From: Planctomycetota bacterium
GTDB lineage: Bacteria > Planctomycetota > SZUA-567 > H5-PLA8
Direction: 5' to 3'
Assembly: GCA_026184295.1 (NCBI GenBank)
Contig: JAHCJK010000029.1
Span: 1-41,463 of the forward strand
DNA length: 41,463 nucleotides
The notes under the pieces were generated by a model. It was not told the origin of the DNA and did not search any database. It worked only from the letters and a program-made list of their open reading frames with translations. Position numbers and translations under genes: made by a program. This document shows positions 12,098-14,860 of the stretch, piece by piece. The stretch's first letter is position 1; every line of letters starts with the position of its first letter.

Positions 12098-12124
12098 GCG
12101 AGCTTTCGCGGTTGTAAGTCCTGA

Positions 12125-13243
12125 CTACGTTAGAGGTTTGTTTCTATTTTTGTCGTGGCGCTGGCGGCGGTTGATGACCGTGCGAATCTCCTCCGCCCGA
12201 TAGGTGCGTTCCGGGGCCCGCTTCCGGCCTTCGGCGATCATCTTTTCGAGGGCTTCCCAGCCTTGCACCTGCGCCGGGGTCAGTGTCGCGGGCTTGCCCT
12301 GCTTCAGGCGATGGCGTACCGCGCGAAGCCAGCGCCGGGTCTCGCGCGGGAGCCGCGGGAGATCGTTCACCACCAGGCCTGTCACGCACTGCCGTTGGTG
12401 GTGGCGGCGAATCGATTTCTTCTTGCCCTTATGGAGCGTGTAGCCCTTTTTCTTCGTGATTCTTCGCACGCGAGAAAGGATGCGCTGGATGTTGCGCGTG
12501 TAATCGAGCGGGAACGAGATTGTGATGTCGTCCGCGTATCGGCTGTAGGTCCCGCCCTTCTGCTTCACGCGGTTTTGAATCTGTACATCCATGTAGTAGT
12601 TGACGAGGTTGCTCAGGCACGGGCTGGTGGGCGCGCCCTGCGGCAGGCCGTCTTCATGCGTGGTCAGGCGCGCAAGCAACGCGGCGGCCTCGCGGTTCCA
12701 TCCGATGCGGTTGAAGTAACGTTCCACGCGGCTGGCCTTGGTATTTGGAAAAAAATCCACGATATCGAGCCGGATCACAACCGCCTGCCGGATGTGCTGG
12801 TTGGCGTGGTCCACGATGCTGCGGCCGCGCACGAAGCCGTAGGCGCACGGATGCGTCTTCAGTTTGCGCAGCAGACGCTTGAGGATGCGGCGCTGCACGA
12901 CCTTGGTGGCATCGTCGGGCACCATCAGCCGCCGCTTGCCGCCGCTGCGCTTGGGGATGAAGACTTCCTGGTAGCGTGGCTGGAAGGCCCGAAGTTCGTC
13001 CACGCGCATGTCCAGGCGCCGCGCGATTTCCGCGACGGCCATGCCCCGGTTGAAGCGAGTGCGAAACCAGAGGCGCAGGCTGTTGCTGTATTCATATTGG
13101 AGAAACGAATGAATCATGCTGATGACAATGGACAGCGCGATGCCGGCCACGAATCCGATCAGCGCGCCCGCCACGCCCCAAAAAATCCCGCCTACGGCCG
13201 GCGCCAAGATGATCAATAAGAAATAGAAAAGGCACATCGGCAT
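12125..13243 (-). CDS. Retron-like reverse transcriptase with fused N-terminal membrane segment
   Basis: 372 residues. The start is the ATG at 13243 or a second ATG at 13237; no strong ribosome site precedes either. The RT core shows IPKRSGGKRRL (about 96-106), region-X-like DHANQH (145-150), catalytic DIVDFF (D160), GLPQGAPTSPCLSNL (about 199-213), the YADD box (236-239) and the thumb motif VTGLVVND (287-294) followed by RRWLRAVRHRL. The combination of (N/H)AxxH and VTG motifs with a 300-odd-residue core is characteristic of retron RTs; maturase or DGR features are absent. Unusually, residues 3-48 are almost wholly hydrophobic, enough for two membrane helices, with a GxxxGxxxG pattern at G26, G30 and G34. 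Two structured non-coding units lie directly upstream. No partner effector gene adjoins. Confidence 0.85.
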   Translation of the reverse strand: MPMCLFYFLLIILAPAVGGIFWGVAGALIGFVAGIALSIVISMIHSFLQYEYSNSLRLWFRTRFNRGMAVAEIARRLDMRVDELRAFQPRYQEVFIPKRSGGKRRLMVPDDATKVVQRRILKRLLRKLKTHPCAYGFVRGRSIVDHANQHIRQAVVIRLDIVDFFPNTKASRVERYFNRIGWNREAAALLARLTTHEDGLPQGAPTSPCLSNLVNYYMDVQIQNRVKQKGGTYSRYADDITISFPLDYTRNIQRILSRVRRITKKKGYTLHKGKKKSIRRHHQRQCVTGLVVNDLPRLPRETRRWLRAVRHRLKQGKPATLTPAQVQGWEALEKMIAEGRKRAPERTYRAEEIRTVINRRQRHDKNRNKPLT

Positions 13244-13259
13244 CGTCTCAAAATAGGTT

Positions 13260-13284
13260 GGCGTGGGGAAAACGCACCCACGCC
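13260..13284 (-). other. Terminator-like hairpin without U-tract, before the RT gene
   Basis: An 8-bp stem GGCGTGGG / CCCACGCC with a 9-base loop lies between the a2 repeat of the proximal ncRNA unit and the RT start. It occupies the place of the true terminator in the upstream unit, but on the minus strand it is followed by AACCTATTTTG, not a U-run. It may stabilise the 3' end of the RNA while letting transcription continue into the RT gene. Confidence 0.6.
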
Positions 13285-13285
13285 T

Positions 13286-13431
13286 GTGCCTTGCTGACTA
13301 GAGATCTTAGCGCAGCGAGAGTCCGTTCCTCGCGAGCATAAGGTCTTGCTAGTTGCCTCACGGCTCTGAGCAGCCGCAACACGACCTGGCCGACGAAACA
13401 TCGGCCTGTGCTATTCGCACCGCCAAGACAC
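13286..13431 (-). ncRNA. Proximal retron msr-msd-like unit (unit A)
   Basis: Read on the minus strand: a1 GTGTCTTG (13431-13424); TAGC (13413-13410) with a candidate branch guanosine at 13411; hairpin GGCCGA-UGUUUCG-UCGGCC (13406-13388) with UUU in its loop, as in known retron msr hairpins; a second hairpin GGCT...AGCC (13375-13362); a long msd-like stem about 57 nt across (13353-13297) built from ACTAG/CTAGT, an 8-bp arm with one mismatch and a GCGAG/CTCGC tip; then a2 CAAGGCAC (13293-13286), which pairs with a1 through one G-U wobble. The predicted start of transcription coincides with a1. This matches retron architecture, but the ends and the msd limits are inferred by eye. Confidence 0.72.
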
Positions 13432-13437
13432 GCACGA

Positions 13438-13465
13438 ATTCTGTCGAGGCCCGAGTATCCGTCAA
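13438..13465 (-). promoter_or_regulatory. Promoter of ncRNA unit A
   Basis: Minus-strand -35 TTGACG (13460-13465) and -10 CAGAAT (13438-13443) with a 16-base spacer. The expected start site, about seven bases past the -10, falls at the first base of the a1 repeat. The same arrangement is found before unit B, which supports it. Confidence 0.6.
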
Positions 13466-13500
13466 GACACGGGATTCGGTTGTGGCATACCGGACGAAAT

Positions 13501-13528
13501 AAAAAGCGTGGACGATTAGGTCCACGCT
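13501..13528 (-). terminator. Intrinsic terminator of ncRNA unit B
   Basis: On the minus strand a perfect 9-bp stem AGCGTGGAC / GTCCACGCT with a six-base loop is followed by TTTTTATTT. It begins two bases after the a2 repeat of unit B and would release a short RNA before unit A begins. Confidence 0.82.
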
Positions 13529-13529
13529 G

Positions 13530-13649
13530 GTGCCTTGCTACGGGTGTCAAAGCGAAGCTTTGATTAACCCTATCCTATGACTCTCAAGAGTCGGCAACGC
13601 GACCCGGCCGACGAAACATCGGCCTGTGCTATCCGCACCGCCAAGGCAC
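13530..13649 (-). ncRNA. Distal retron msr-msd-like unit (unit B)
   Basis: Same layout as unit A, 218 nt further upstream. On the minus strand: a1 GTGCCTTG (13649-13642), TAGC (13631-13628), hairpin GGCCGA-UGUUUCG-UCGGCC (13624-13606), hairpin GACTC-UUGA-GAGTC (13592-13579), a short msd-like stem (13570-13542) made of GGGT/ACCC and the 7-bp TCAAAGC/GCTTTGA around a three-base loop, then a2 CAAGGCAC (13537-13530), an exact 8-bp complement of a1. Over 58 aligned bases (13594-13651 against 13376-13433) only four differ, all transitions; the msd-like parts are unrelated. It may be a second template, a decoy or a decayed copy. Confidence 0.68.
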
Positions 13650-13656
13650 GCGAAGC

Positions 13657-13685
13657 ATTGTGGACAGCGGCCGCAGTTCCGTCAA
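13657..13685 (-). promoter_or_regulatory. Promoter of ncRNA unit B
   Basis: Minus-strand -35 TTGACG (13680-13685) and -10 CACAAT (13657-13662), spacer exactly 17. The predicted start is at or one base before the a1 repeat, as in unit A. Confidence 0.62.
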
Positions 13686-13763
13686 GAGGCGGGTCGCAAC
13701 ACGCGGTCAGTCCGCCGGCCGCGCGCCGGTTATCACTCGGGAGCGCCGGGCGCGCGCCCTCGT

Positions 13764-13934
13764 TTCCCCGAAGGGGAAATAGATGAAAGCCCAGGGTTGC
13801 GCGCGCAGCGCGCTACCCTGGGAAGACGTGCCCATGCGAAGCTTCCCTTGCAGGGAAGCTTCGCGCGCGCTTGTACCCAGGGTAGCGTGCTGCGCACGCA
13901 ACCCTGGGCTTTCACCTGCTTCCCCTTCGGGGAA
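13764..13934. repeat. 171-bp near-perfect palindromic element with nested hairpins
   Basis: The whole stretch is an inverted duplication around TGC at 13849-13851. The inner 29 bases (13836-13864) form a perfect 13-bp stem GCGAAGCTTCCCT; further out, 13764-13822 and 13876-13934 are complementary with few mismatches, and each contains its own CCCAGGG...CCCTGGG and GGGGAA hairpins. Differences between arms often keep the local hairpin paired (GCGCGC opposite GCGTGC). It has the look of a non-autonomous palindromic repeat family; no target-site duplication is evident. Confidence 0.85.
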
Positions 13935-13970
13935 GAACGCACGGCGGCTGCGCATGCCACACGCGCACGC

Positions 13971-14020
13971 CACACGCACACGCACACGCACACGCACACG
14001 CACACGCACACGCACACGCA
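13971..14020. repeat. CACACG hexanucleotide tandem repeat
   Basis: About 8.3 uninterrupted copies of CACACG, followed to about 14089 by degenerate CACACG/CATACG copies. The strict purine-pyrimidine alternation makes it prone to slippage and to left-handed DNA. Open frames across it encode only Thr-His or Val-Cys dipeptide patterns and are not genes. Confidence 0.95.
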
Positions 14021-14186
14021 TATGAAAACGCATATACATGCGCATACGCACTCGCACACGCATACCCACACCCACACGCACGAAAGACCGGATGCCCAGG
14101 GTGGGTGCTATTCTGGGTGGATGAAATCAAGGAAACGGGTGTGATCGGGAGGTGGGTCTTAGGCGAGCTACAAGGGATGCGTTTAA

Positions 14187-14394
14187 GGCGCGTGACATAG
14201 GCGCGTGTCATAGGCGCGTGTCATAGGCGCGTGTCATAGGCGCGTGTCGTAGGCGTGTGTCATGGGCGTGTGTCTTGGGCGTGTGTCTTGAGCGCGTGAC
14301 TTGGGCGTGCGTCTTGGGCGTGCGTCTTGTGCGCGTATCTTGGGTATGTGTCGTTGGGCGTGTGTCGTTGACACGCGTCTTGTGCGTGCGTGAC
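14187..14394. repeat. 13-bp minisatellite, about 16 units
   Basis: Tandem units of GGCGCGTGTCATA at the left drift gradually to GGCGTGTGTCTTG and more degenerate forms at the right; units from 14187 to 14290 are in exact 13-base register. The ordered drift suggests growth by slippage or unequal exchange. No spacer structure, so not a CRISPR array. Confidence 0.92.
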
Positions 14395-14415
14395 CAACCC
14401 GGAGAATGTAGGAAA

Positions 14416-14495
14416 GCCGTTCTCCGTGTCCTCTGTGCGCTCTGTGGTGAATAGCAGGAACGCCATTCTCTGCGCGCTCCGCGTCTCCGCGGTGA
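14416..14495. repeat. Two imperfect copies of a CTCTGTGGTGA-type interspersed repeat
   Basis: 14416-14450 and 14462-14495 are two related copies, beginning TTCTC and ending in TCTGTGGTGA and TCCGCGGTGA. Sequences of this kind, read on the other strand as TCACCACAGAG..., are widely scattered in genomes of several environmental phyla. It sits just downstream of the STAS gene's stop. Confidence 0.65.
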
Positions 14496-14506
14496 GAAAA
14501 AGGCGG

Positions 14507-14860
14507 TTACTTCGCCTTCAGCGCCGCCGCTTCGTCGGCGTAGATGCTCAGTTCCTTGTCGAAGCCGAGCATGTTGATCACGGCCATCGTGCCCTGCGGG
14601 ATCTTGATGAGCGCGAAGCGGCCCTGAATCTTCGAGAATTCGTCGGTGTATTTGAGCAGCAGGCCGACGCCGGCGGAGTTGATGTATTCGAGCTTCGTGC
14701 AATCGACGATGACCAGCTTCGCGTCTTTCTCGATCAGCTTGTCCATCACCTGCTCGAACTCGTTGAGCGTCGAGGCGTCCACGTAGCCGTCGAGCGAGAC
14801 CTTCACGCCCGTCGTCCCGGTCTTGGACTTGATGACGCCGACTTTGAATTCGATAGGCAC
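14507..14860 (-). CDS. STAS-domain anti-sigma factor antagonist
   Basis: 117 residues from a GTG at 14860 with GGGAG five to six bases upstream. It is a single STAS domain of the SpoIIAA type: strands around VKVSLDGYVDAS and KLVIVDCTKLEYI, then NSAGVGLLLKY, where S62 is at the usual phosphorylation position. Such proteins bind and neutralise an anti-sigma kinase when unphosphorylated. No kinase is present in the window. It lies 101 bases downstream of the aldolase gene on the same strand and may share its transcript. Confidence 0.88.
   Translation of the reverse strand: MPIEFKVGVIKSKTGTTGVKVSLDGYVDASTLNEFEQVMDKLIEKDAKLVIVDCTKLEYINSAGVGLLLKYTDEFSKIQGRFALIKIPQGTMAVINMLGFDKELSIYADEAAALKAK

Follow-up and report, generated by a model that had tools for sequence, protein, structure and literature searches.

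Two Tandem msr-msd-like RNA Units Upstream of a Single Reverse Transcriptase Gene in a Very Likely Retron of Planctomycetota

Introduction

Retrons, which usually serve in phage defence, are built around a reverse transcriptase (RT) that makes DNA from a small RNA. The non-coding RNA (ncRNA) has complementary ends, a1 and a2, that enclose one to three msr hairpins, one of them bound by the RT, and an msd part folded into a long hairpin; the priming guanosine usually lies within a TAGC sequence at the inner end of a1. Retrons are usually organized with a single msr-msd cassette for each RT, although this is not a strictly defining feature. Here we describe a locus, very likely a retron, in a 41,463-nucleotide (nt) stretch of a Planctomycetota bacterium (contig JAHCJK010000029.1 of assembly GCA_026184295.1, positions 1–41,463; hereafter the window), in which two msr-msd-like units lie in tandem upstream of one RT gene. 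We consider it likely that this is a retron of a planctomycete clade in which tandem duplication has given rise to two copies of the msr-msd ncRNA, with one probably membrane-anchored RT serving two separately transcribed templates.

According to a review of retrons (PMC6868368), RT-Eco1 binds an 8-bp UUU-loop hairpin through its region Y, msr and RT must be cognate, and the guanosine used for priming is located where the a1/a2 stem ends on its inner side. In the same review, msr and msd are joined in one cassette in all experimentally validated retrons. The window locus is similar to Retron-Eco1 (Ec86) in the sequence and fold of the RT, the closing a1/a2 stem, and the 8-bp UUU-loop msr hairpin. 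Retron-Eco1 has one ncRNA, a separate effector, and a TAGC-type priming site at the inner a1 end, whereas the window locus has two ncRNAs with their own predicted promoters, no effector gene that we could find, and an RT with a predicted hydrophobic N-terminal helix. The YADD and VTG motifs of the RT, the a1/a2 ends, the msr hairpins H1 and H2, and a predicted msd hairpin in both units are all present; what departs from the usual one cassette per RT is the presence of two units, each with a promoter match. The RT profile of PADLOC retron type XIII is the best match to the window RT, and none of the window neighbours searched gave a match to a defence gene. Single-unit planctomycete relatives share the same RT and ncRNA families, but have one ncRNA per RT.

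Results

Organization of the Two RNA Units

The units and the RT gene are all encoded on the minus strand. A 58-nt direct repeat, with copies at 13376–13433 and 13594–13651, is 93% identical, and its four differences are compatible with the predicted fold; these copies match the 218-nt period and the 54 of 58 shared bases that an earlier note on this DNA had described. Unit B (120 nt, 13530–13649) and unit A (146 nt, 13286–13431), when folded separately, form an 8-bp a1/a2 stem around H1, a UUU-loop hairpin H2, and further hairpins, and no shuffled sequence was equally stable (z-scores of −3.83 for B and −3.32 for A). The a1 of unit B (GTGCCTTG, 13642–13649) pairs over 8 bp with a2 (CAAGGCAC, 13530–13537), H2 (GGCCGATGTTTCGTCGGCC, 13606–13624) is a covarying 8-bp helix closed by the UUU loop, and the predicted msd-like stem-loop (13542–13570) comprises about 11 bp. 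In unit A, a1 (GTGTCTTG, 13424–13431) forms 8 bp, including one G-U pair, with an a2 of the same sequence as in B (CAAGGCAC, 13286–13293), and H2 (13388–13406) is identical to that of B. The msd-like stem of A (13297–13353) differs in length from that of B, and the two sequences are not alignable. A duplication introduced by the assembly was considered as the source of the two units and is ruled out by their different length and msd sequence.

A scan for sigma-70-like promoters across 13200–13760 returned exactly two sites, both on the minus strand and each adjoining its a1, compared with 0.1 expected in shuffled sequences. The sites are TTGACG-17-CACAAT for unit B (13657–13685), at a position conserved across 51 family units, and TTGACG-16-CAGAAT for unit A (13438–13465). 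Downstream of unit B, the closing hairpin (13505–13528) has the features of an intrinsic terminator with a T-tract; that of unit A (13260–13284) is GC-rich, lacks a T-tract, and is followed 16 nt further on by the RT start codon. The proposal of the earlier note that each unit possesses its own promoter, msr-like hairpins, msd-like stem, a2, and closing hairpin is thus borne out.

An RNA Family Linked to the Reverse Transcriptase

The earlier note had called for a covariance-model search, which was run with a model built here from an alignment of 30 units from homologous loci. The two window units score alike as full-length members of the family (78.9 bits, E = 1e-14 for B; 77.3 bits, E = 2e-14 for A), in part by construction, because both were included in the alignment from which the model was built; the independent evidence for the family is its linkage to the RT in genomes outside the building set. 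The RNA is present in 27 of 392 Planctomycetota genomes, and each of these 27 also has the RT (E ≤ 1e-50); the RT itself occurs in 29 genomes. Wider samples yielded 32 further loci, in 29 of which the RT lies downstream on the same strand, 75–460 nt away. The three exceptions are a locus at a contig edge (L161), a locus without RT (L201, genome G611), and a divergently placed unit (L167, genome G471).

Among the aligned units, 97.8% of cells are paired, and 32 two-sided changes were counted, versus 8.9 in shuffles. The H1 and H2 helices covary across the family, and so do the a1/a2 ends across loci (GCCTTG/CAAGGC, GCCTCG/CGAGGC, CACCTTG/CAAGGTG, GCTTTG/CAAAGC). With a unit located upstream of nearly every homologous planctomycete RT, and with covarying base pairs, the RNA is therefore a real, RT-linked family. 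A TTGAC-type promoter with a spacing of 16–19 nt was matched near a1 in the 51 units (mean of 7.75 matches versus 6.10 when shuffled). Single-unit relatives (e.g., L002 in genome G003, L003, and L004), whose RTs are about 50% identical to the window RT, also have the promoter and the closing hairpin.

A scan of the rest of the window genome with the covariance model returned no unit beyond A and B. The Rfam scan of the region gave no msr match, only matches below gathering scores. The RNA motif had 56 matches in GTDB contigs, and all those linked to the family of the window RT are planctomycete; nearly all the others were taken as chance matches, with no RT at the locus. RT relatives were also sought in GTDB contigs by peptide patterns, and none was confirmed. 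Outside Planctomycetota, the same UUU-loop hairpin motif lies near a more distant retron-like RT in Caenimonas sedimenti (L056; 22 bits, covering model positions 31–49 only). The divergent ncRNA of G471 (L214, 2087–3118) comes with a TTGACG box, a1/a2, and a closing hairpin of its own, and its placement indicates that it is uncoupled from the RT transcript. The ncRNA of G611 (L213, 6866–6947) is decayed, without RT, UUU loop, or recognizable a2, in the same genus as the two-unit genome G612.

The TAGC that had been put forward as branch site is doubtful in this role, as it is located in the H1 loop, away from the inner end of a1, and occupies that position in only 5 of the 30 family members (AGC in 16 of 30). 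In 28 of 30 members, the CTT of a1 is directly followed by GG, where the priming guanosine would be expected.

Distribution and Divergence of the Tandem Units

The doubling was counted over 59 RNA-bearing genomes from the phylum-wide sample and from the orders that were searched; relaxed searches of the flanks added only marginal matches (17.6 and 15.8 bits). Two units were found in three genomes, namely the window genome, G102 (L104), and G612 (on the same contig as L038), and one unit in the other 56, so that the single ncRNA normally expected of a retron holds within this family as well. The three tandem genomes belong to three families; the duplication is thus not absent from all homologues of the window locus, an outcome that the earlier note had regarded as decisive against its proposal. 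The units are spaced by 218 nt in the window, 196 nt in L038, and 166 nt in L104. Mapped onto the RT tree, the tandem state requires three changes, and well-supported branches make at least two of them unavoidable. Because the tandem genomes fall into three families and stand apart in this tree, the duplication looks recurrent, although one gain followed by losses is not strictly excluded.

Within the three unit pairs, msr identity is 94, 86, and 80%, compared with an msd identity of 52–56%, close to the 46–50% obtained in shuffles. The retention of the msr next to a nearly random msd in all three pairs suggests that a single RT has two templates and makes two species of multicopy single-stranded DNA (msDNA). 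The two L038 units have distinct a1/a2 stems, each compensated within itself (UCGCUUUG/CAAAGCGA and CUGCUUUG/CAAAGCAG). The msd of unit B shows an identity of 0.59 to that of the nearest single-unit relative, L002, versus 0.48 in shuffles; because this likeness exceeds chance, unit A may, tentatively, carry the newer msd.

The small number of tandem genomes would also be in line with a duplication in progress, with one working unit beside a decaying or redundant copy, and decay of this kind does occur, as seen in the RT-less relic of G611. We regard this explanation as unlikely, since units A and B score alike, both keep the promoter, a1/a2, H1, and H2, and the four differences in 58 nt leave the fold intact. 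The relic, unlike A or B, has lost the RT, a recognizable a2, and the UUU loop, and each L038 unit retains its own compensated a1/a2 pair. Less probable still is that the second RNA, instead of being a template, titrates the RT by means of the shared msr, as a regulator or decoy. The identical H2 of the two units and the terminator of unit B, which could make it a free small RNA, are compatible with a decoy, but unit B retains a2, the msd stem, and the 8-bp a1/a2 stem, none of which a decoy would need, and its msd is somewhat closer to that of L002 than expected by chance.

The Reverse Transcriptase

The RT gene (12125–13243) encodes a retron-type reverse transcriptase of 372 amino acids with YADD and VTG motifs. 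The best PADLOC profile for the protein is RT_XIII (6e-73), which is also the top profile for all seven RT homologues tested, with other retron RT profiles nearly equal to it in score. A search against PDB sequences retrieved the Ec86 RT as best match (3e-32), and the closest PDB fold to the AlphaFold model (predicted local distance difference test, pLDDT, of 85) is likewise that of the retron Ec86 RT (E = 2.8e-20). The YADD motif and the VTG motif of region Y are invariant among the RT homologues in one alignment (A5), and VTG is conserved with few exceptions in a second (A4).

Residues 2–63 form a hydrophobic N-terminal helix in the AlphaFold model, and this hydrophobicity suggests a membrane segment, which may constitute a membrane anchor or a fused effector. 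The N-terminal stretch is strongly hydrophobic in about half of the RT homologues; the others have a short, amphipathic-looking start. This unusual helix, the lack of an identified effector, and the poorly conserved TAGC would be compatible with another ncRNA-guided RT system, similar to the defence-associated RTs (DRTs) and with a different product, but we consider this highly improbable, because retron RTs are nearest to the window RT in sequence and fold, with DRT and group II RTs far behind, and because the RNA has a closing stem, a UUU-loop msr hairpin, and an msd stem.

Genomic Context

A comparison of neighbour genes over 33 loci revealed no family widely shared apart from the RT, and PADLOC gave no match for five window proteins encoded nearby. 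Large clusters of shared neighbours, examined as candidate conserved partners, correspond to antisense or out-of-frame open reading frames over the RT gene. Because no effector was found, a role in phage defence is proposed by analogy with other retrons.

In the congeneric genome G001, a distance of 428 bp separates the flanking STAS and FAD-oxidase genes, and the RT is absent. Its homology to the window stops at about 12108 and 14517, and the retron, together with a repeat-rich stretch, is missing there (12109–14516). Given this site without a retron, the retron represents a module that was either gained in the window genome or lost in G001. Upstream of unit B, positions 13760–13940 contain a 181-bp palindromic hairpin, a dispersed repeat with 35 matches on many contigs of the window genome. 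Positions 13960–14400, in the stretch separating the retron from the STAS gene, contain long, degenerate CA/GT-rich tandem repeats with a 12-nt period and GGCGTGTGTC-like units.

Discussion

The locus appears to be a genuine new variant of retron, probably functional, and it probably has two functional templates. A full-text search of the literature turned up no retron with two or tandem ncRNAs; the main classification paper (Mestre 2020) was outside its scope, and an earlier mention is possible.

Several observations weigh against the interpretation as a retron with two working templates. No separate effector gene was found, either over the 33 loci or among the five window neighbours. The NAXXH motif of region X reads HANQH in the window RT; the A and H are invariant and the N is present in most homologues, and two validated retrons likewise deviate at this N (PMC6868368). 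The TAGC that would usually hold the priming guanosine lies in the H1 loop and is not conserved. Tandem units are rare, so one copy could be dispensable, and the assembly of the window genome is fragmented.

In the arrangement that we propose, the same msr (a1 end, H1, and UUU-loop H2) would be recognized on both RNAs by the single RT, and the different msd behind each msr would give rise to two different msDNAs. Unit B would be a self-terminated small RNA, and the promoter of unit A would drive A and, by read-through of the hairpin lacking a T-tract, the RT. The conserved msr would thus act as the handle of the RT and the divergent msd as an exchangeable head. The separate promoters and the B terminator may prevent the a1 of one RNA from pairing with the a2 of the other, a2 being identical in both window units. 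We infer the transcription of the units, the binding of H2 by the RT, the 2'-5' priming, and the two msDNAs. The full proposal, a multi-sensor arrangement that has evolved repeatedly in Planctomycetota, in which a membrane-anchored RT makes two msDNAs from a shared msr handle and different msd heads with no separate effector gene, is a tentative one, on balance somewhat doubtful. Its more speculative elements are that the two msDNAs are two sensors and that the effector is the N-terminal membrane segment of the RT or a distant gene.

The ncRNA family marks an apparently effector-less clade of retrons in Planctomycetota. If the retron with two templates is correct, it would be a natural case of one RT serving both, in which templates are separable modules recognized by their msr. 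The role of the msd would then be testable inside one cell, with the same RT and two heads, and the locus would provide a natural precedent for multiplexed retron editing.
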